Shown piece after piece: positions 18,885 to 30,626 of a DNA stretch of 64,000 nt (position 1 is its first letter; every line of letters starts with the position of its first letter). Below the pieces are notes generated by a model, which was given only the letters and a program-made list of their open reading frames with translations, was not told the DNA's origin and ran no database searches. The translations under genes were made by a program, and so were the position numbers. Location of the stretch: the IMG/VR virus record IMGVR_UViG_3300042691_025267, positions 16,387 to 80,386 of that record. One strand, written 5' to 3'. This DNA is from a virus.

Positions 18885-21800
18885 CTATTGAGATTGTGCG
18901 CGATATAATCCACTAACCACTGCCGAATCACTTGCATTTACTAGAACCTTTCCTACCTTGGCACCGTCCATGTGAATTTGAATACCTTGTAGTGCGGTAA
19001 TAAAGTTATTCAATTTTTGTTCCATGCCACTAGTATCCACCGTCACTGGTTTTTGTTCAGTTTCTCGTGGTTCCTGTTGTTGCTGCTGTCCACCTGCCAT
19101 CGTTCCAAGATCTACTGATGGTGATGATATGCCTGGTCCCGATGGCGTTGCTTGAGGTTTCTTCTTACCGAATAGTCCACCCGCCAATTTACCGAGCTTA
19201 GATCCAACCAATGAACCAATTGCAGTTCCTACGCCTGGTATTGGGATTGCCGTTCCGATTGCTCCGCCGAGTGCCTTTCCAATACCACCTTTGGCAAGTG
19301 ATCCTAACGCACCTTTTACCCCACCTTGCTTAAAGGCAGAGAATGCGTTCATTGCCCCAGAAAGTCCTGGAACCTTTTTACCAAGCATGCCTAGTCCTTG
19401 GGTTAATAATGAACTCTTGACTCCACCAACGCCACCTTCTTTAAAGGCACCCATTGCTCCAGAAAGTCCGGGAACCTTTCCACCTAAGAAGCCCAATCCT
19501 GTATTCAATAAACTAGATTTCAATCCGCCGACGCCACCTTCTTTAAAGGCGCCAATTGAACCAGATAAAGAAGAGAATCTATTTCCTAACAATCCCAATC
19601 CAGTATTCAACGCGTTAGATTTTATTCCACCAACTCCACCTTGTTTGTACGTATCATACATGTTAGTTGCTTGTGGCATATACTTCGCAAAGCCTGGCAC
19701 TCTACTACCGGCAAGTCCCATTCCTTTGGACATCAAATTGGATTTCAGACTACCTACCAATCCACCATCACGCATTTTAACACCGACGCCCGCAGCAAAG
19801 TTTTTTGACCATTCACTTGGTTGTTTCCGTGGCATTGCTTTCCCACGTTCACGACTATTCTTTACCCATTCTGGTTCTGCTTTCCCAACATCATATCCAG
19901 TATAAAACAATGGGTTTTTTCCTTTATTCCACGACATTTGTGATTGTTCTTTGTAAGTATCATAGGTTTCTGATAATCCCAGTCCAATAATAAATGCTTC
20001 TGCTCCTGCAACATTAACCGCACGTGAAATGAGGGATTCTGCTCCATCCATGCCAACCGTCTCAGCTATTGCTTTCCATTGACCTTTTAAGATTTGTTGG
20101 ATTAAGGCAAAGTTTTTCAGTTTTCCCGTCACGCCTTCAACTTTATCAAGTGTTTGTGCATACCGAGTTATATCTTTTAGAACTGCGGCAATAGAACCTA
20201 CCGTTGATGCAGAGTCAAGTGCAGCACTTCCAGTTTTATTTAAACTATCTAATTTATCCACACCAATAGAAGAAACTGCTTTTGCGTTTAATACATATTC
20301 ACCATTAGACAACATTGCAGGAATACTATCACTAGTTGGAGTTCCCGGTCCTGTAACTTTTCCACCTTCTGCAAATCCCGTCGCTGAGACTTTAGGTTTA
20401 TTTGTTGGGATTTGAGTAGAAGGTTGTACTGGTTGAAATAAATTACCTCTGTATGTTCCTGGCAGAATATTGCCGTATGTATTGTTGAGATACTGTATGT
20501 TGCTCGCCGTAATAGCATCCTCTTGAGCTTTTCTTATGTTTTCTTGACTAATCTGTGCCGCACGCATAGCAGGTAAGTTACGCATCTGTACTGCTTTATT
20601 TTCTTTATCTTTTGCATAACCGACATCACTTTCGGTAAATACATTTGTGTTTGTTTCTGCCGAATATCTAGCTCCTTGTACTTTACCTGCCTTAATCTGT
20701 TCTTGCACCTTACTATTATTTTCAGAAAGCCAAGTTTGTGTCAGTTTTTCAATTACAGTCTTATCTACACCAGCTTGACGTAAAACATCTCGTGCTTCGT
20801 ATCCTTTATTTTGAGAAAATAGTTGCCTTGCTTGATTTTCTGCTTTAATTTTATCCCCAATAAATGGTATTTCAGCAGCAATACGTAGAATTAGTTCGGA
20901 TAACGCACCAAACCCAGTCGTGATGGCAGCAATAAGTGCTATCGTACCTCCAGGACCCTCTAAAAACTTCATCAGATCGCCAGCAGGCCCCATTGCTTTC
21001 AATAGACTATCTAACAAAGAATTACCTTTTTCTGCTTCAGTTAATTCTGGAGATTTTGTTGGTTTTGGTGCGGCAAGTTTTTGTAATTCACTGATACTCA
21101 TACCCATGAATCGTTCTAATGCAATTCTGGTAGGTCGGTCAAGGTCCGTAATGTCCTTGCCTAGAGTTTGAAGTTGTCTATTAAGTTCATTATATAGATC
21201 GGCATCACTTCCTGTTACCGAAACTTCCATCAGTCTATTTGCGTCAATGTTCATTCCCATTGCGCCCAATTCAGCAGATCCCTCTAAGAATCCTTCATAA
21301 TTGTCAATAATACTATCACCAAATTGACTTACTTTATTTAAATCAACACCCATTCGTTTTGCATCAGCAGCGGCGCGTGCAAACGAATCAGCAAATCGTG
21401 ATCCATTTCGTGCCATCAATTCTGAATATTTTCCGATTGCCTCCATTGCAACTTTTGGAGTCATACCTGCTTTACTAAACTGTGTTAAAAATTTATTTTG
21501 AAGAACCCCTGCTTTGTTAAGATCACCGAGCGCTTGTGTGGCAAATACTCGACGTGCTTTTACGATAGCATCAGTAGATAATCCTCTTTCTGCTGCAAGA
21601 TTTGCCACACTTTTCATTGCACCTTCGTCTAATACGCCAAACTCTTCTTGCACAGATTTTAATGCATCTTCTCTAGTTTTTTGATCTACATAAATTTTTG
21701 CTTTTTCTACCAATGGGCCACGATCTGCGGTGAGTCTTTCGGCTAACCCCTTAAATTCTGTCATTGCGCCAGAGAATACATCCCCAACCGATCCTTGTCC

Positions 21801-22658
21801 AAATGCAGCACTTGTTAAACCACGACCAGCATTAAATAACGTTGAAAATGTGTCTCCAATGAGATCACCGAGTCCTGTAAAATCTAATGACTCAAAAGTT
21901 TCTTTCATCCCTACAAATGAATCTTTCAGCATCCGTGCTTGTAACTCGGCTGCTTGAGTCATTGAAAGACCAAAGTCTTGTTGTGTTTTCTTAATAGAAT
22001 TAACAAAATCTATTGCCGCACTTGCCGCCTTACCTAATCCAATAGCAAGTAGACTTAATCCTCCGACAACCAGACCAAGCGCTGCCGCAGCGCTTGCAAG
22101 TGTTGCGCCTCCTGCCATCTTGGCAATGTTACCAGCCACTGCCAATCTACTTGGTGCCGGTCCCGCCGAGGTTAATGCTTCCGATGCTTTTTGTTCTGTA
22201 GAAGATGATTTTTCGTATTTCTGTGATGCTTTTTCTGCTTTACTCTTTAAATCTTTACGTTGCGCATACAAGTCACGAAATTTGATTTCTTCAGTAATTG
22301 ATGCCAGTGCTCCGCCCGATGCTGCTCGTTTCCGTGTCAAGGTCACATATTCATCATATTGACGAGCACGGAGTTGCATTTCTCTACGATCAATATCAGC
22401 TTTTCGTTTAGCAGTAGCTAAACTTGCCTGCAACATAGTATTTTCTTGTCGTTTTAATTGAGCAGTTTTTAATTCTTCAACTATACTGTTTTTAAATTCA
22501 ACAACACGGGCTCTAAATGTTTTGTTTTGCTCTTTAAGATGTTTAACCTGTTCCGTGTGCGCAGAAATTAAACTACGAGTTTCCTCTTGTAGTTTTTTAT
22601 ATAATTTAGCTTGATCGGCCGCTTCTTTTTTAAGTTGGTCTACACTAGGATCTGCCAT
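18885..22658 (-). CDS. Tape measure protein
   Basis: 1257-aa tail-length protein. The first 180 residues are an alpha-helical coiled coil (QAKLYKKLQEETRSL, HLKEQNKTFRARV), followed by a hydrophobic Ala/Gly-rich segment (about 183-215). A long helical middle has SMTQAAELQARML and a typical TMP pattern of GG-ENG loops (SNGEYVLNA near 800). Residues ~960-1125 carry about five tandem units of roughly 33 aa of the form GGVGG-KSSLLNTGLG-LG-VPGLSGAMGAFK. By the usual ~1.5 angstrom per residue this would give a tail near 190 nm, much longer than T4. Tail-chaperone genes lie just upstream, as is standard. Confidence 0.92.
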   Translation of the reverse strand: MADPSVDQLKKEAADQAKLYKKLQEETRSLISAHTEQVKHLKEQNKTFRARVVEFKNSIVEELKTAQLKRQENTMLQASLATAKRKADIDRREMQLRARQYDEYVTLTRKRAASGGALASITEEIKFRDLYAQRKDLKSKAEKASQKYEKSSSTEQKASEALTSAGPAPSRLAVAGNIAKMAGGATLASAAAALGLVVGGLSLLAIGLGKAASAAIDFVNSIKKTQQDFGLSMTQAAELQARMLKDSFVGMKETFESLDFTGLGDLIGDTFSTLFNAGRGLTSAAFGQGSVGDVFSGAMTEFKGLAERLTADRGPLVEKAKIYVDQKTREDALKSVQEEFGVLDEGAMKSVANLAAERGLSTDAIVKARRVFATQALGDLNKAGVLQNKFLTQFSKAGMTPKVAMEAIGKYSELMARNGSRFADSFARAAADAKRMGVDLNKVSQFGDSIIDNYEGFLEGSAELGAMGMNIDANRLMEVSVTGSDADLYNELNRQLQTLGKDITDLDRPTRIALERFMGMSISELQKLAAPKPTKSPELTEAEKGNSLLDSLLKAMGPAGDLMKFLEGPGGTIALIAAITTGFGALSELILRIAAEIPFIGDKIKAENQARQLFSQNKGYEARDVLRQAGVDKTVIEKLTQTWLSENNSKVQEQIKAGKVQGARYSAETNTNVFTESDVGYAKDKENKAVQMRNLPAMRAAQISQENIRKAQEDAITASNIQYLNNTYGNILPGTYRGNLFQPVQPSTQIPTNKPKVSATGFAEGGKVTGPGTPTSDSIPAMLSNGEYVLNAKAVSSIGVDKLDSLNKTGSAALDSASTVGSIAAVLKDITRYAQTLDKVEGVTGKLKNFALIQQILKGQWKAIAETVGMDGAESLISRAVNVAGAEAFIIGLGLSETYDTYKEQSQMSWNKGKNPLFYTGYDVGKAEPEWVKNSRERGKAMPRKQPSEWSKNFAAGVGVKMRDGGLVGSLKSNLMSKGMGLAGSRVPGFAKYMPQATNMYDTYKQGGVGGIKSNALNTGLGLLGNRFSSLSGSIGAFKEGGVGGLKSSLLNTGLGFLGGKVPGLSGAMGAFKEGGVGGVKSSLLTQGLGMLGKKVPGLSGAMNAFSAFKQGGVKGALGSLAKGGIGKALGGAIGTAIPIPGVGTAIGSLVGSKLGKLAGGLFGKKKPQATPSGPGISSPSVDLGTMAGGQQQQQEPRETEQKPVTVDTSGMEQKLNNFITALQGIQIHMDGAKVGKVLVNASDSAVVSGLYRAQSQ
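19290..19775 (-). repeat. Tandem ~99-bp repeats in tape measure gene
   Basis: About five imperfect units encoding a Gly-rich 33-aa module with GGVGG...KSSLLNTGLG and VPGLSGAMGAFK. Neighbouring copies are also similar at DNA level (for example 19430-19550). Such repeats can change tail length by unit gain or loss. Confidence 0.75.
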
Positions 22659-22661
22659 ATA

Positions 22662-23033
22662 TTACTCAAACAGGGCGTGATATGCTACCGCCAACAATAG
22701 TTGTATATTACCACTTGGTACTGTTCCTAATGGATACCCCGATACGCCTGTTCCTTTAAATACACGAGTGCCACTAATACGTGCAATCGGCATACCACTT
22801 ACTGCATTTCCTTTAAATACCAAGTCTCCCACAAGCGTTACCAGTGGGCTACCAGATGGAGACATTCCTTTAAACAGTTTGTTTCCAGATACCGTGTATA
22901 CTGCAGCGCCCGATACACCGGACCCACCATATACTCTAGAATCTCCCACGATAGTTAACGTGGGAGATCCAGAGACAGATGATCCTTTATAAGCTCTATC
23001 AGTATTTTCCAACAAGTATCGCAATCGTATCAT
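22662..23033 (-). CDS. Repeat protein between tail chaperone and tape measure
   Basis: 123 aa made almost wholly of five ~20-residue repeats of the pattern (F/Y)KG--VSG-P---(I/L)VGD--(V/L), ending in a hydrophobic segment LLLAVAYHALFE. The regular Gly and hydrophobic spacing suggests a small beta-solenoid or flower-like fold. The family is unknown to me. It begins with an ATGA overlap on the frameshift ORF and stops 3 nt before the tape measure start, so it is part of the tail cistron. It may be a minor tail or assembly protein. Confidence 0.75.
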   Translation of the reverse strand: MIRLRYLLENTDRAYKGSSVSGSPTLTIVGDSRVYGGSGVSGAAVYTVSGNKLFKGMSPSGSPLVTLVGDLVFKGNAVSGMPIARISGTRVFKGTGVSGYPLGTVPSGNIQLLLAVAYHALFE

Positions 23034-23275
23034 CGTCGTTTACTCGCTTTCTCTATTTGTTTAGATTCTTCTTCTTTCAGTTTACCAAATTCTCTAATCA
23101 TAAAGTTTCGCATGTAAACCGGCATTTGGTATAAATCCATCACACTAAACGCACCTTTTGAGTAATGAGCAACCGTCATTATGATTTTTAACGTTTCAGC
23201 TTTATACTCTTGAGTCAGGCCAAAAAAAGTTGGTGCCGAGCGGCAACCTCGTCTCTTCTGAAGTACCACACACAC
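23030..23275 (-). CDS. Downstream frame of the tail-chaperone pair, probably reached by frameshift
   Basis: 81-codon frame overlapping the end of the gp26-like gene by 74 nt. It has no ATG near its 5' end, only a GTG without a convincing ribosome site. The part that looks like real protein begins exactly after a run of seven T on the coding strand (A at 23222-23228): GLTQEYKAETLKIIM, then a helix, MPVYMRNFMIREFGK and a charged tail KLKEEESKQIEKASKRR. A +1 (or -2) slip on TTT TTT T would fuse it to the upstream protein as a 311-aa product. Position before the tape measure matches the G/GT arrangement of other tailed phages. The independent GTG start is the alternative. Confidence 0.65.
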   Translation of the reverse strand: MCVVLQKRRGCRSAPTFFGLTQEYKAETLKIIMTVAHYSKGAFSVMDLYQMPVYMRNFMIREFGKLKEEESKQIEKASKRR

Positions 23276-23966
23276 AGTCTAATGTAATCTTAAAATTAAT
23301 ATCTGGGATAATGTTTCTGTATGTTTCCCGAAGATACCGTGCATCTCGTACTAACATATTGTCCACAAAACTCCAGATCGTAGACTTTGATGTATCTCCA
23401 TTCACCGACAAAATCATATGCTTTAATCGTGTAGTTGCGTCTGCTTCCACATCTGAGTTGATTTTTTTCAGTGACTTAACTTCTTTTTCTATTGCTAATT
23501 CATCACCACGAGTCAGTAACTTAAGAACAATTTCGGCCTTTGATAACGGAAGTACAATTTTAAAATCTGGCTTAGTTCCCACTTGTGGTTCATTTTGGGT
23601 ACTAAGTTCTGCCAAGTTTACCGTTTGATCTACCTGCTTTCCACAGGACGGACATTCCAGCGATACTTCATAGTCTTTACCATATCCTAAAATACGTGAG
23701 GCAACCATGACAGCATTTAAATCACCCACCAATAAATCGGTAGTCTTTACTCCTTTTGTGGCAATGATAGCGTCCATAAATCTATCTAACACAATTCCCT
23801 TTTGAATCAAGTTCGGTGATGTTAAGATATCTTCGTGCTTTGCTGTCATGTAATGTAATTCAATTTGACCACTACGTAACGGACTTCCCTCTGGATAAAA
23901 TAGTCCCTTAGATGGGAGATCAATGGTTTCCGTGGGAAATGTTGTTGTAACTGATTGTTGTTCCAT
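23202..23966 (-). CDS. T4 gp26-like baseplate hub-assembly / tail chaperone protein
   Basis: 254 aa with the pattern of the T4 baseplate hub-assembly family (PF12322 type): DLPSKGLFYPEGSPL, MTAKHEDILTSPNLIQKG, DLLVGDLNAVMVASRILGYGKDY, then a cysteine pair in ECPSCGK and another in DCVCG that could bind zinc. The C-terminus FFWPDSRV ends directly after a T7 run where the second frame takes over. It lies upstream of the tape measure, where tail assembly chaperones are encoded. Expected role: scaffold for the hub/tape measure, not retained in the virion. The ATG is preceded by AGAGGG at 5 nt. Confidence 0.8.
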   Translation of the reverse strand: MEQQSVTTTFPTETIDLPSKGLFYPEGSPLRSGQIELHYMTAKHEDILTSPNLIQKGIVLDRFMDAIIATKGVKTTDLLVGDLNAVMVASRILGYGKDYEVSLECPSCGKQVDQTVNLAELSTQNEPQVGTKPDFKIVLPLSKAEIVLKLLTRGDELAIEKEVKSLKKINSDVEADATTRLKHMILSVNGDTSKSTIWSFVDNMLVRDARYLRETYRNIIPDINFKITLDCVCGTSEETRLPLGTNFFWPDSRV

Positions 23967-25885: not shown

Positions 25886-26105
25886 TCTCTTCTGGAGTTT
25901 CTTCTATACGGACGTAGACCATATTTTCCATGTCTAACCGCCATCCGTTCTTGGGGTCAATTTGTAATATTTGCATCATTTGTATATTTGCTTCTTGAAT
26001 TTCGGTCATCAATTGTGTCTGATAACTCTTTAATAGTGCATTATTTGACTTGATTAGATTTTGTAACGCAAGTGGAACATCTACCGTAACTTGTTTAGTG
26101 CTCAT
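25866..26105 (-). CDS. Small helical unknown protein
   Basis: 79 aa, not recognised. The central 40 residues form one amphipathic helix or short coiled coil (LQNLIKSNNALLKSYQTQL, EIQEANIQMMQILQI). A WRLDMENMVYVRIEE strand and an acidic/Pro end follow. It overlaps the helicase start by 20 nt and the subtilase stop by 11 nt, so it is co-translated and could be a helicase partner. Confidence 0.7.
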   Translation of the reverse strand: MSTKQVTVDVPLALQNLIKSNNALLKSYQTQLMTEIQEANIQMMQILQIDPKNGWRLDMENMVYVRIEETPEENAPVTG

Positions 26106-26754
26106 GTATACCTCCTAAAAACATCTGTTTAATTTCTATTGCATTTTTTTCTGGGAACTGTTGTACCAATTTAGCCAGTTGTCCCGATACTCGTGCTGCT
26201 GCCAACGAAGTACCAGACGCTATCTGTGTTTCTCCGTCTAGTGTTGTAACTTCTACGTCAATCCCCAAGGCAATCACATCAACTTCTGGTCCAAAATTAC
26301 TTCCCCGACCTTCTTCCCATGACATGACTTGATTATACATATCACATGCACCAACGCCAATTACTTCATTCATATTCACGGGAGAAAATTCAGAGGCTGG
26401 TCGCATTTCGTTTCCTGCTGCTGCAACTACAATAAACTTTGTAGGATCCAACTCTCGTATCTTATCGTCAATAATATGATGGCGTGGAACTGCCCATGCG
26501 CAGGTGACGATATTGACAGGTTCCGTTGCATCGTGTTGTATTGCGGTAAATGCTTCCATCATCTGTCCAAATGTACCCACTGAACCCAATCCAATTTTTA
26601 CATTCTTTAGTAGAACGTTGGGGTTAGTTCGTCTAATGACACTTGCTACTCCTGTGCCATGTCCATCTAGATCGTCAAACGTTCCATCATAGGTGTATAC
26701 GTTTATCCCGTTTGGTATTCCACTGTCTACTACGTAAATTGTTACACTTCCCAT
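26095..26754 (-). CDS. Minimal subtilisin-like serine protease (S8)
   Basis: 219-aa subtilase consisting of only the catalytic domain. The triad is D10 (YVVDSG), H32 (DGHGTGVAS) and S183 (ASGTSLAAA), with oxyanion N115 (AAAGNE). No signal peptide and no propeptide are visible, so it would act in the host cytoplasm or in the virion. It is related to the larger subtilase at 27696 (shared PRxxIxDxKI, GVGA-D-Y--V-SW and GSN-GP-VD segments) and probably arose by duplication. Candidate tasks are maturation of virion proteins or cleavage of a modified peptide. No such role is documented here. Confidence 0.9.
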   Translation of the reverse strand: MGSVTIYVVDSGIPNGINVYTYDGTFDDLDGHGTGVASVIRRTNPNVLLKNVKIGLGSVGTFGQMMEAFTAIQHDATEPVNIVTCAWAVPRHHIIDDKIRELDPTKFIVVAAAGNEMRPASEFSPVNMNEVIGVGACDMYNQVMSWEEGRGSNFGPEVDVIALGIDVEVTTLDGETQIASGTSLAAARVSGQLAKLVQQFPEKNAIEIKQMFLGGIHEH

Positions 26755-26978
26755 TTACCTTTTGGACATGCACTTGGTCCTTTTGGACTATATACTTTTT
26801 TTGACAATGGACATCCACATGCACCACAGATATGCGTCCGTATTAACATTTTAAACTCTTTGAACTCACACGCATCGCAAACTTCTGCTCTACGTTCAGC
26901 AGTTTCTTTTTGTTCAATAGTTGGATTACTGGCACGATGCCATGCAGTGATAATTTCTCGTATATCAGGAATATTCAT
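26742..26978 (-). CDS. Small zinc-ribbon-like Cys-rich protein
   Basis: 78 aa. An N-terminal helix (IREIITAWHRASNP) precedes a cysteine cluster CDAC...CGACGC...C, followed by KKVYSPKGPSACPKGKW. The spacing suggests one zinc ribbon or two half-sites. Function is unknown; protein- or nucleic-acid-binding adaptors of this size are common in T4-related phages. It overlaps both neighbours (13 and 4 nt), linking the first subtilase and the first sulfotransferase-like gene. Confidence 0.75.
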   Translation of the reverse strand: MNIPDIREIITAWHRASNPTIEQKETAERRAEVCDACEFKEFKMLIRTHICGACGCPLSKKVYSPKGPSACPKGKWEV

Positions 26979-27694
26979 ATTGGAAATTCATAATTAAAAT
27001 ATACAAAATCGTCGTGAAACAAATATTTCACCAAGTTCTTAAATTTTTCTGAGTTAATATCTATATTAATTTTTATTTTTTCCTTGGGTGTGATATTTTC
27101 TTGTTTAATTACAGATGTGTCATATCCCAACGTGACTTCTATCCAATCATTAAATTCGTTTATATTTTCATATCTAAATATTTTAACCTTTGGTTTGTAC
27201 GCCCATTCTACTTGAGTTGTAAAAAATGAGGACACAAACCCCGGTCCGTCTGCATCAAAAATTAACTGTAAATTATTTATATATTTTGGTACACAATTTT
27301 TATAAAACGAGTCATAACAAAAATCGTAAAAAAACTTTTCCGATTGAAATATGTCTATAAAGTTAAATCCCTTCGTCCTTGGATCAGTTTCTTCAATTTT
27401 AATTCTTTGTTTTGAATCGACATCAAACTGATATGTGGTTTTATATACGTTTCCTTGTAAATACGAATCACGTTTAAACTTCATGAAATATAGTGCTGAA
27501 ATAAATCTTTTATACGGATTTCTTATTACGGTAAACGCCGGAATATCTATGTGTTCTTTAGTATATGGATCGTGTGTATGTAAAAAGTTTTCACCGATCT
27601 CTGGGAAAAATAACTTCGTATATGCAATGGTTCCTGTTTTTGGTATTTTTATATAAAAAAACTTATTATTATTAATTCTTGAAGTAACTATCAT
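26975..27694 (-). CDS. Sulfotransferase family protein
   Basis: About 239 aa. The 5'-phosphosulfate-binding loop is visible as FYIKIPKTGTIAYTKLFF and the 3'-phosphate-binding motif as TVIRNPYKRFISALY, the two hallmarks of PAPS-dependent (family 2) carbohydrate sulfotransferases. A later YENINEF resembles the third conserved segment. I choose the ATG at 27694 (MIVTSRI), right beside the stop of the upstream subtilase. The frame extends to 27763, but that part overlaps the subtilase. It transfers sulfate from PAPS to a sugar or polypeptide acceptor. The APS kinase domain encoded at 29853 could supply PAPS. Confidence 0.8.
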   Translation of the reverse strand: MIVTSRINNNKFFYIKIPKTGTIAYTKLFFPEIGENFLHTHDPYTKEHIDIPAFTVIRNPYKRFISALYFMKFKRDSYLQGNVYKTTYQFDVDSKQRIKIEETDPRTKGFNFIDIFQSEKFFYDFCYDSFYKNCVPKYINNLQLIFDADGPGFVSSFFTTQVEWAYKPKVKIFRYENINEFNDWIEVTLGYDTSVIKQENITPKEKIKINIDINSEKFKNLVKYLFHDDFVYFNYEFPI

Positions 27695-27695
27695 A

Positions 27696-29222
27696 TTAAG
27701 CTTGTGTAAAACATTCACCATTAGAACATCCGCAACTGTACCCTTTGGGGGGGATAGCACCACAGGTCTGAAAGCAAAACCCTTCGCATGCAGCAGGTAT
27801 TACCACTATTGTACCATTTTCTTCTTTATATTGATACACTTCTTCCGTTGTAGATTCTTCTGGATCATTTATATATGTACCTATCAACAACGGGTATACT
27901 TCTAACTGTGTATCATTTTGATCTACTACTTTGATAAATATTCTCGTATTTTTAACATAATTAACATCCGTTGGACTAAACCTAATAGTATTAGTAGTTG
28001 TGTCAATCGTAACCCACTCAGGATAATATCTACGTATGTTACCGAAAACAACATCATCTATGTCTATTCCATAGGCATATTGATCATTTAATTCTAATAT
28101 TAATTCATACTCTGTACCAATCTGTACATTTATTTTTTCTTTCGGGATATTTTTTATAAACTTATCAAATGATGAGATGTATAGTATACTATTTGGTGTT
28201 GTGCCATAGATACTTTCATTTCTAAACAAAATATCAGTAATTCCACTATTAATTACTATGAATTGTATGTGGTATGCAGTAAGATTATTCGTTGAATTTA
28301 AATCTTTTATATATTGTGCAACTACCCCCGACGTTAATGCAGCAGCAAGTGAAGTACCAGAAGATTCTTTTATAGTACCGTCTATGTTTAGAACATTAAC
28401 TCCAATTCCTGGCGCAAAAATATCTACATCGGGCCCCCAGTTTGAACCAGCTCCACCCCCCCAACTAATAACTCTATCATATGGATCGGATGCACCTACA
28501 CCTATCACCGTATCTAACCCCACGGGCGATAGATTATTTGCGTCTGACATGGTGTTACCTGCTGCGGCCACTACTACAAAATTACTATCTTGCAATTCTT
28601 TAATTTTTGTATCAAGAATTTTACTTCGTGGAATAGTCCATGAGCAATTTACTACAGCAACTTCGGTTATATCGGTTCGGTCTTGCAAAATTGCGTCAAA
28701 TGCAAGTAACAAATCACTTATGTTAATCACTGCTGCCATTTCAATTCTTACGTTTTTTAATTCTACGTTAGTTGCTACACCAAGTGTGCTACCAACTATT
28801 AGACTTGCCATAGCAGTACCGTGACCCAACTCGTCAGAAAAATCACCATTGAAACTATAACAGTTAACAATATTTGCGTCAACTAATTCTGGTAACGTTG
28901 CGTTTATTCCACTATCAATCAAATAAACTTTTACTCCATCCCCATGATTTAATGGAAAATACTTTTCTTTCATTGGAAGTGCATTAGAAATAATTCTTAA
29001 TTGGTGCCACTCCGAATTAGATGGATGTACTTCCGTACTCAAGTCTTCTTCTATATCTAATACACCAGATATGTTCGTAAATACGTCTTCTGATTCGCAC
29101 GATACATTGACTACCTGCATGGAAGTAAATATACGATTTACTACTATACCTTGATTGGTCATACTGCTAAGTAAATTTTCTATATTAATATCTTTTTCAA
29201 AAACTACATTATAGTTTTTCAT
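27696..29222 (-). CDS. Large subtilase with N-terminal propeptide-like and Cys-rich C-terminal regions
   Basis: 508 aa from ATG at 29222 (GAGG at 6 nt); an upstream in-frame start at 29234 is less likely. Residues 1-65 look like an I9-type prodomain. The catalytic domain has D103 (YLIDSG), H134 (LGHGTAMAS), N223 (AAAGNT) and S291 (SSGTSLAAA). Residues ~350-460 form a beta-rich Ig/cadherin-like domain (FSPTDVNYVKNTRIFIKVV). The last 30 residues hold six cysteines. There is no signal peptide. Such a layout resembles secreted subtilases, which is unusual inside a phage late region. It could be a virion protease or a maturase for the neighbouring gene products. Confidence 0.9.
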   Translation of the reverse strand: MKNYNVVFEKDINIENLLSSMTNQGIVVNRIFTSMQVVNVSCESEDVFTNISGVLDIEEDLSTEVHPSNSEWHQLRIISNALPMKEKYFPLNHGDGVKVYLIDSGINATLPELVDANIVNCYSFNGDFSDELGHGTAMASLIVGSTLGVATNVELKNVRIEMAAVINISDLLLAFDAILQDRTDITEVAVVNCSWTIPRSKILDTKIKELQDSNFVVVAAAGNTMSDANNLSPVGLDTVIGVGASDPYDRVISWGGGAGSNWGPDVDIFAPGIGVNVLNIDGTIKESSGTSLAAALTSGVVAQYIKDLNSTNNLTAYHIQFIVINSGITDILFRNESIYGTTPNSILYISSFDKFIKNIPKEKINVQIGTEYELILELNDQYAYGIDIDDVVFGNIRRYYPEWVTIDTTTNTIRFSPTDVNYVKNTRIFIKVVDQNDTQLEVYPLLIGTYINDPEESTTEEVYQYKEENGTIVVIPAACEGFCFQTCGAIPPKGYSCGCSNGECFTQA

Positions 29223-29251
29223 AATAATCCTCAATCAAAGTACTTGAATTT

Positions 29252-29839
29252 TCATATAAGTACGTCATTTATATTTAATAAATTTGCAGCCCACTGACGT
29301 TCCATGCAGAAGTAACACCCACCACACTTCTCCACACCATCTTTATTTTTTATACCACATGACCTAGTTAATTTCAACAAATCCAACACATTCTCTGTAA
29401 CATACAATTGCATTATTTCTTTTTTATCCATATCAATAAACGGTCTGATATGTTTATCATTGTAAGGAGGGCCCCTAAACGGTGGTGTATCGTTTTTTAT
29501 GTATATAGTGGGGGTAAATTCATCCGTTAGTACTTTATTACATCCACTATATACATACCCGCCTTCCGTCAATAATATGTTTTCCACCAACTCCCGTATA
29601 TTGTAGTTTTTATATAATTTTTTATTACTAAAGTTAATTCCTTTCATAGTAAACCATTCCTGTACTCTCTTTACATTATTCACCGCATCTGCGGTTGGCA
29701 TCGTATACGAGAGAATCGGGATGGTCCTATTTTCTTCATAGAGTTGCTTTTGTAATAAAAATAATAAAATAGAACTATCCATTCCGCCAGAAAATAATAC
29801 GTTAATTTTTTCGCAGTCGGATGGTATTTTTATTGTCAT
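29252..29839 (-). CDS. QueC-like PP-loop ATPase (copy 1)
   Basis: 195 aa. PP-loop LFSGGMDSSILL at residues 14-25 binds ATP. The C-terminus has C-x9-C-x2-C-x2-C (SCG...KCGGCYFCMER), the zinc-binding pattern of QueC, 7-cyano-7-deazaguanine synthase. FRGPPYNDKHIRPF lies in the middle, with HIRPF resembling the P-F segment of QueC. No FolE, QueD, QueE or DpdA-type partner is seen in the window, so a deazaguanine pathway is not supported here; a related amidation or adenylation reaction is possible. A paralogue lies at 30803. Confidence 0.75.
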   Translation of the reverse strand: MTIKIPSDCEKINVLFSGGMDSSILLFLLQKQLYEENRTIPILSYTMPTADAVNNVKRVQEWFTMKGINFSNKKLYKNYNIRELVENILLTEGGYVYSGCNKVLTDEFTPTIYIKNDTPPFRGPPYNDKHIRPFIDMDKKEIMQLYVTENVLDLLKLTRSCGIKNKDGVEKCGGCYFCMERQWAANLLNINDVLI

Positions 29840-29852
29840 ATATAAGTATCAA

Positions 29853-30626
29853 TTATATTCCCATTTGCTTACGAATGTCGGTTGCGCTGATCGCTTCTGT
29901 GGACGCGTCCAGATTGATTTTCTCCACCTTATAGCCCACATCTCTACCGTAATACACGCCGGTAATGTTTGGTAGGAATATCACTTCAAATTTTCCTTGA
30001 TATTTGTCATTTAATTTTTTATAAATGAAATCAGATACTTCTTCATAATCAAACGGATTCTTTTCATCAATGTTGTGGGTATTGCGGACCCCAATAAGTA
30101 CCTGTCCTTCTTTTTCCAGGATGGTTTCAAACAATTTCAAATGACCATCGTGGAATGGCTGGAATCGTCCAATCATCAATCCTGTGGGTGCTTGCCAATC
30201 AAATTCTGGAACCGGCTCCATCTTTTTAGTAAGGCGTGCGATAATCTCGTCAGTTTGTTCACCGACATCACCCCATGCAGTAATTTCCACATCTACTACT
30301 TCTGGTCGTTGGAATACCTTATTGGTGTCCTCAAACCGACCTTCGTTGATTGTATTCATAAACACGATATAGTCGGGAGCAAACGCATCTCTGGTTTCTT
30401 CTAATGGACACACGAAATCGGCAACTACGTGGTCTGAACTGGCAATATCGGCAAGATGATACATTCTATCCGCCTGTCGGAGCCGTCCTTCTTCACTGAA
30501 GTCCCAATCATTAAACATCTTACGAACTTCGTCTGCATTAAAATATGCGGCTTTCAACTTCTCTGCCAACACTTTGGAAAGGGTCGTTTTTCCAGACCCC
30601 GGTAATCCCATAACTAAAATTTTCAT
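29853..30626 (-). CDS. APS-kinase-like domain fused to nucleotidyltransferase
   Basis: 257-aa two-domain protein. Residues 1-130 are a P-loop kinase of adenylylsulfate-kinase type: Walker A GLPGSGKTT at 7-15, then FNADEVRK and FVCPLEETRDAF. Residues 148-257 are an HxGH nucleotidyltransferase: GRFQPFHDGH at 153-162 and the closing ISATDIRKQM, closest in appearance to NMN/cytidylyl-transferase enzymes rather than classical ATP sulfurylase. If the second domain made APS, the protein would be a one-piece PAPS synthase; more conservatively it phosphorylates APS and adenylylates another substrate. Three sulfotransferase-like genes nearby make a sulfation role attractive. Confidence 0.82.
   Translation of the reverse strand: MKILVMGLPGSGKTTLSKVLAEKLKAAYFNADEVRKMFNDWDFSEEGRLRQADRMYHLADIASSDHVVADFVCPLEETRDAFAPDYIVFMNTINEGRFEDTNKVFQRPEVVDVEITAWGDVGEQTDEIIARLTKKMEPVPEFDWQAPTGLMIGRFQPFHDGHLKLFETILEKEGQVLIGVRNTHNIDEKNPFDYEEVSDFIYKKLNDKYQGKFEVIFLPNITGVYYGRDVGYKVEKINLDASTEAISATDIRKQMGI

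Follow-up and report, generated by a model that had tools for sequence, protein, structure and literature searches.

Xu et al. (2004) are said to have described the frameshift of tail assembly chaperone (TAC) genes, as in lambda gpG/gpGT, as general among tailed phages, and Vladimirov, Gautam and Davidson (2022, Virology 566:9-15) reportedly identified the chaperone genes of T4-like phages. A 2016 review gives the direction of the tail frameshift as -1, -2 or +1 depending on the phage, with +1 very likely for HSTV-2 and -2 used by phage Mu, and calls the frameshift conserved 'except T4'; the known Shine-Dalgarno (SD) spacings are 3 nt for +1 shifts and 9-14 nt for -1 shifts (PMC5009743). For T4-like phages, a 2025 paper mentions -1 signals in TAC-N genes (PMC12846349), and the PRFect paper reports that some of them use two genes (PMC10885494). 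Both papers cite the 2022 study, which reportedly already tied the gp26 family to the G/GT strategy. The first-pass annotation of the locus described here had argued that a frameshift in it would link the T4 gp26 family to that strategy; the link holds but is not new, having been published in 2022 according to these citing papers.

The gp26-like locus and its second frame

The window, which is the whole stretch of DNA analysed here (64,000 nucleotides), is part of a virus record totalling 80,386 bases and carries the gp26-like locus on its minus strand. The ORF for the short form of the putative chaperone, TAC-N (23202..23966, minus strand, frame 0, 254 aa), belongs to the T4 gp26 family, with a match to PF12322 (T4_baseplate) of E 1.3e-11 and 45 bits against a curated cut-off of 24.5, and it also matches phrog_150 (baseplate hub; E 4.7e-13). 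Its product ends in FFWPDSRV, of which the tail WPDSRV and the TAA stop (23202..23222, minus strand) would be read by non-shifting ribosomes. The stop ends at 23202, 20 nt past a run of seven T (23228..23222), as the first-pass annotation had stated for a 254-codon frame. That annotation also described a second frame of 63 codons, entered from the T run and with no ATG at its 5' end, and this frame is indeed present. Entered from the T run, the +1 frame reads GGC CTG ACT CAA from 23221, continues as GLTQEYK...ASKRR and stops at 23032-23030 (TAC-C, 63 codons plus stop; 23030..23221, minus strand). The fusion of TAC-N with this extension, TAC-NC, is 311 aa long, the annotated length being reproduced from the window sequence.

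The stop of the +1 frame overlaps the start of the next gene as ATGA (23033-23030). This gene (22662..23033, minus strand) encodes a 6-fold beta flower protein (Pfam Bflower_3), and the overlap suggests that its translation may be coupled to that of the +1 frame. Downstream of the chaperone lies a gene for a probable tape measure protein of 1257 aa (18885..22658, minus strand), residues 654-809 of which match phrog_3547 (tail length tape measure; E 2.7e-12). As in lambda G/GT-type systems, the chaperone gene precedes that of the tape measure protein within the tail module. A long ORF also occurs within 1.5 kb downstream of the chaperone in all 88 relatives with enough sequence. In LIS04 and SP-15 the sheath and tube genes come, in that order, before gp26, and the tape measure gene after it; immuto has the gene for a tail completion protein in the place of the tube gene. 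No tRNA genes were found in the window by ARAGORN. Elsewhere, the minus strand of the window has two neighbouring subtilase-like genes (Peptidase_S8; 26095-26754 and 27696-29234, E 6.1e-20 and 4.6e-22), with a weak sulfotransferase-like match between them (26975-27763). A QueC-like PP-loop protein (E 2.1e-9) adjoins a protein with a kinase-like N-terminal part and a cytidylyltransferase-like C-terminal part (29252-29839 and 29853-30626, minus strand).

Relatives were collected from IMG/VR in two sets. A search with the window protein returned 80 loci, and a search with the alignment and one N-terminal peptide pattern returned 80 further loci; as the second set was found solely through an N-terminal pattern, it is not biased towards the junction. 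Together with ten phage records and the window, these gave 171 gp26 sequences, some of which are near-copies. Cultured relatives include Flavobacterium phage immuto and Microcystis phage Mel-JY01, in which the residues at the junction are slightly different. Grouping by shared 5-mers gave 113 distinct relatives among the sequences with a +1 site; the first set contains 64 distinct loci. The extension profile matches in the +1 frame directly after the gp26 ORF in 165 of the 171 sequences, including weak matches (16-19 bits) in GXN1, LIS04 and SP-15. Three sequences (XacN1, RAS14 and LR756511) have a weak extension in the -1 frame instead, and the remaining three are two contigs that end too early and RM378, whose +1 frame is open but unscored by the profile.

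Past the junction, all 111 distinct relatives compared have an open +1 frame of 57 codons or more (median 80), which is far beyond chance; the -1 frame meets a stop after a median of 2 codons. Counted from the first slip codon, and with FF included, the frame-0 stop comes 5-10 codons later in 64 of 64 distinct loci of the first set. The conserved core of the extension alignment is about GLTPEYR...YNMP..LR.FY. In eight close relatives, the part of the extension that lies past the frame-0 stop has a pN/pS of 0.24 in the +1 frame versus 1.9 and 1.0 in the other frames; purifying selection acts on the +1 ORF in its own frame. Loss or gain of one base in a gene that was once continuous, through assembly error or pseudogene formation, was considered as another reading. 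No point in support of this was found, and its probability is negligible, given that homologues of many samples, and sequenced phage isolates as well, have the identical frame relation.

The second frame could instead be a separate gene with its own start, for which the window offers two in-frame GTG codons, at 23275 and 23269, and no ATG. Neither is preceded by a convincing ribosome-binding site or a strong SD in the window. In the interval from the last +1-frame stop to the junction, 39 of the 64 distinct loci lack both ATG and GTG, and 26 lack ATG, GTG and TTG, so that a separate gene is not a general explanation; like the second ORF of lambda G/GT-type genes, the extension is generally unable to start alone. 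The residues directly after the junction (GLTPEY) are also conserved, which speaks against a separate start, and we regard a separate gene as highly improbable. Two arrangements that the first-pass annotation had named as contradicting a frameshift, a separate ATG-initiated second gene and one continuous frame without the T run, were looked for in the 171 gp26 sequences and seen in none. Small hypothetical genes are annotated inside the extension in immuto (L081:6854-6964), RM378 (L088:4677-4853) and SP-15 (L090:4755-4874). These are probably fragments of the +1-frame extension, and the annotation can be corrected for such chaperones, whose second halves are now separate small hypothetical genes or unlisted.

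We modelled the gp26-like part and the extension separately using AlphaFold2. The top PDB match of the gp26 model (mean pLDDT 88.9) is the HK97 tail assembly chaperone 2ob9, ranked first of 350,542 chains but weak by itself (Foldseek E 0.6; VIA Z 4.8 versus 2.6 for the next; 85 residues aligned, rmsd 4.5). In a viral structure library, it is most similar to baseplate hub subunits of T4-like phages. The extension model (mean pLDDT 87.8) is a three-helix domain (helices 4-20, 27-31 and 35-62), and Foldseek of this 63-aa extension gave no significant match in the viral library. Profiles of the extension and of gp26 gave nothing significant against single T4 gp51 and gp26 sequences; the extension profile aligned near the gp51 C-terminus with a probability of 0.1%.

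The proposed slip site and direction of the shift

The slip site in the window is TTT TTT T (23222..23228, minus strand), with frame-0 codons at 23228-23226 and 23225-23223, followed by TGG at 23222-23220. Slippage at this motif, as originally proposed, agrees with its retention in nearly all relatives. Among the 113 distinct relatives the TTT TTT pair occurs in nearly all, with TTC as the first codon in four, and with TTT (103) or CTT (7) as the second; the next frame-0 codon is TGG in 106. As in slippery sequences of the lambda G/GT type, TTT or CTT followed by T or C stands before the +1 codon in nearly all relatives. The full run of seven T is not essential for the frame relation, to judge from the aligned sites: the longest run is three T at 6 of the 113 sites and four T at 5 of them, the frame relation is unchanged, and in these relatives the P-site codon is still NTT with T or C after it. 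The same short runs bear on the idea that the second product comes from slippage of transcription on the T run and not of the ribosome. Seven consecutive T are a modest site for such slippage, but the runs of 3 or 4 T at eleven sites speak strongly against it there, and the variants TTC TTT TGG and TTT CTT TGG likewise argue against it and favour +1 P-site slippage. We consider transcriptional slippage very unlikely.

The window site alone is compatible with both a +1 and a -2 shift, and the first-pass annotation had named both. After a -2 shift the P-site tRNA would have moved back two bases on the T run, which the seven T permit, and the product would contain an extra Phe (FFFGLTQ); phage Mu provides a precedent (PMC5009743). 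Comparison of relatives favours +1. Re-pairing of the P-site tRNA is possible in the +1 direction at 113 of 113 sites and in the -2 direction at 109 of 113 under a permissive pairing rule, and the CTT sites would require extra wobble for -2; CTT is known as a P-site codon from prfB (PMC5009743). At the four distinct TTC TTT TGG sites, -2 re-pairing is impossible and +1 is possible. Because sites of this type fit +1 alone, +1 is likely to be the rule in the family, and a -2 shift is improbable.

It is very probable that in this T4-like phage, as apparently in numerous uncultured relatives, one gene encodes two forms of a T4-like tail assembly chaperone by +1 ribosomal slippage, a mechanism and a step that we infer from the comparison of sites. 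The majority of ribosomes would read TTT TTT TGG CCT ... TAA and release the 254-aa TAC-N. In a minority, the P site would hold tRNA-Phe on the second TTT while the Trp codon TGG awaits decoding, and this tRNA would move forward by one base (TTT T to TTT), re-pairing on 23224-23222. The shifted ribosomes would then read GGC CTG ACT ... and produce the 311-aa TAC-NC with the C-terminal three-helix domain. By analogy with lambda G and GT, TAC-N and TAC-NC are the likely products, at a ratio set by the presumed minority of shifting ribosomes. In a chaperone role modelled on gpG/gpGT, TAC-N would form a coat around the tape measure protein, and the tube protein would be brought in through the C-terminal domain.

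The upstream SD-like element

The site has neither of the known bacterial stimulators of +1 shifting, which are a stop codon in the A site and an SD at a distance of 3 nt upstream. In the window, an SD-like GAGG (23247..23250, minus strand) precedes the first slip codon by 22 nt and is part of GAGGTTGCC, which is invariant in eight close relatives (alignment A3). An SD-like 5-mer occurs at this place in 10 of the 113 distinct relatives versus 0.4 expected under synonymous shuffling. A possible hairpin with a putative role, GGT-GCC-GCTC-GGC-ACC (23232..23248, minus strand), is located just before the slip site, and the 27 nt before the site have a folding energy of -7.9 kcal/mol. When the eight closest relatives were folded, no pair had changed on both sides.

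Synonymous shuffling gives an expectation of 23.5 SD-like 5-mers at 20-31 nt upstream of the first slip codon (at most 38 in any of 200 shuffles) and of 27.9 at 32-44 nt upstream; the counts observed across the relatives are 130 and 85. No excess was detected nearer than 20 nt or beyond the 20-45 nt zone in the 113 distinct relatives. GGAGG is found at -31 in 44 of 111 distinct relatives, and in this group it lies in the loop of a stem formed by columns 5-11 with 20-26 of alignment A5. In this stem 69.2% of cells are paired versus 57.6% in shuffles (0 of 500 as high), and 50 cells are changed on both sides versus 16.4 in shuffles and at most 23 in slid versions. The SD-in-loop stem score is above the synonymous null (p 2e-11), although the sequences are related and this figure, like the others for 5-mers, stem and folding, overstates their independence. 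The 36 nt before the site have a folding energy of -6.79 versus -4.21 (sd 0.21) under synonymous shuffling, and the energy of a control stretch farther upstream is not lowered. No column-wise hairpin common to the whole family emerged, the covarying stem being confined to the GGAGG(-31) group; many relatives have a hairpin with a GGAGG loop, and the window subgroup has the plain GAGG at -22.

Neither a +1 clade nor an SD-in-loop hairpin was found described in the literature examined, which covered Vladimirov et al. 2022 only as cited by others. The +1 direction of this clade thus appears to be undescribed, as does an SD-like element 22-33 nt before the site, often in the loop of a covarying hairpin. 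The conserved element is a concrete candidate for a stimulator of +1 shifting without a stop codon. Tentatively, and with somewhat less than even confidence, we propose that a hairpin whose loop contains the SD-like GGAGG, some 20-40 nt before UUU_UGG, could act as a new driver of +1 shifting by pairing with 16S rRNA and/or re-forming behind the ribosome, pulling the mRNA by one base. On this proposal, relocation of the SD from 9-12 nt upstream to a distant hairpin would have been what switched the gp26 family between -1 and +1.

Comparison with known systems

P-SSM2, S-PM2, HTVC008M, Cr30, phiM12, KVP40 and phiW-14 carry the extension in the -1 frame; the junction is at a T run, which an SD-like motif precedes by 9-12 nt. 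The extension in the window is not in this frame. On a gp26 protein tree the +1 sequences cluster, with two label changes versus 9.3 in shuffles, although long branches make the deeper order uncertain. XacN1, RAS14 and LR756511, large phages with an extension in the -1 frame, are placed near the +1 clade. In T4, genes 26 and 51 are separate and on opposite strands, unlike in KVP40, a Vibrio phage of the Straboviridae, where gp26 is followed by an open -1-frame extension at TTTTTTC. Judged by the frame of the extension, this clade appears to shift forwards (+1) and the best-known T4-like relatives backwards (-1). A homologous chaperone would therefore keep its two-product strategy while the direction of the shift differs by clade, so that what sets the direction can be asked.

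The +1 site of prfB (release factor 2) resembles the one proposed here in a P-site slip on UUU_U or CUU_U. In prfB, however, UGA occupies the A site and the SD is 3 nt upstream (PMC5009743), whereas in the window clade UGG comes next (106 of 113), the SD-like element is about 20-30 nt upstream and SDs are not enriched in the nearest 20 nt. T4 gene 60 bypassing, with a 5' stem-loop outside the mRNA exit channel (PMC5009743), is similar in that a hairpin precedes the recoding site and could fold again behind the ribosome. The likeness is an analogy only, as gene 60 skips a long coding gap, and the window clade would skip one base and has the SD-like motif in the loop.

Lambda gpG/gpGT resembles the proposed arrangement in its two products, in a shift near the end of the first frame and in its position upstream of the tape measure gene, but the lambda shift is -1 (PMC5009743) and that proposed for the window clade is +1. 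The T4-like TACs are closer still in having a gp26-family TAC-N, a C-terminal domain in an overlapping frame and a place in the tail module. In P-SSM2 and similar phages this domain is in the -1 frame with the SD-like motif 9-12 nt upstream, whereas in the window clade it is in the +1 frame. Tail chaperones in two forms were already known, and the forward shift appears to be what sets this clade apart from its best-known T4-like relatives.
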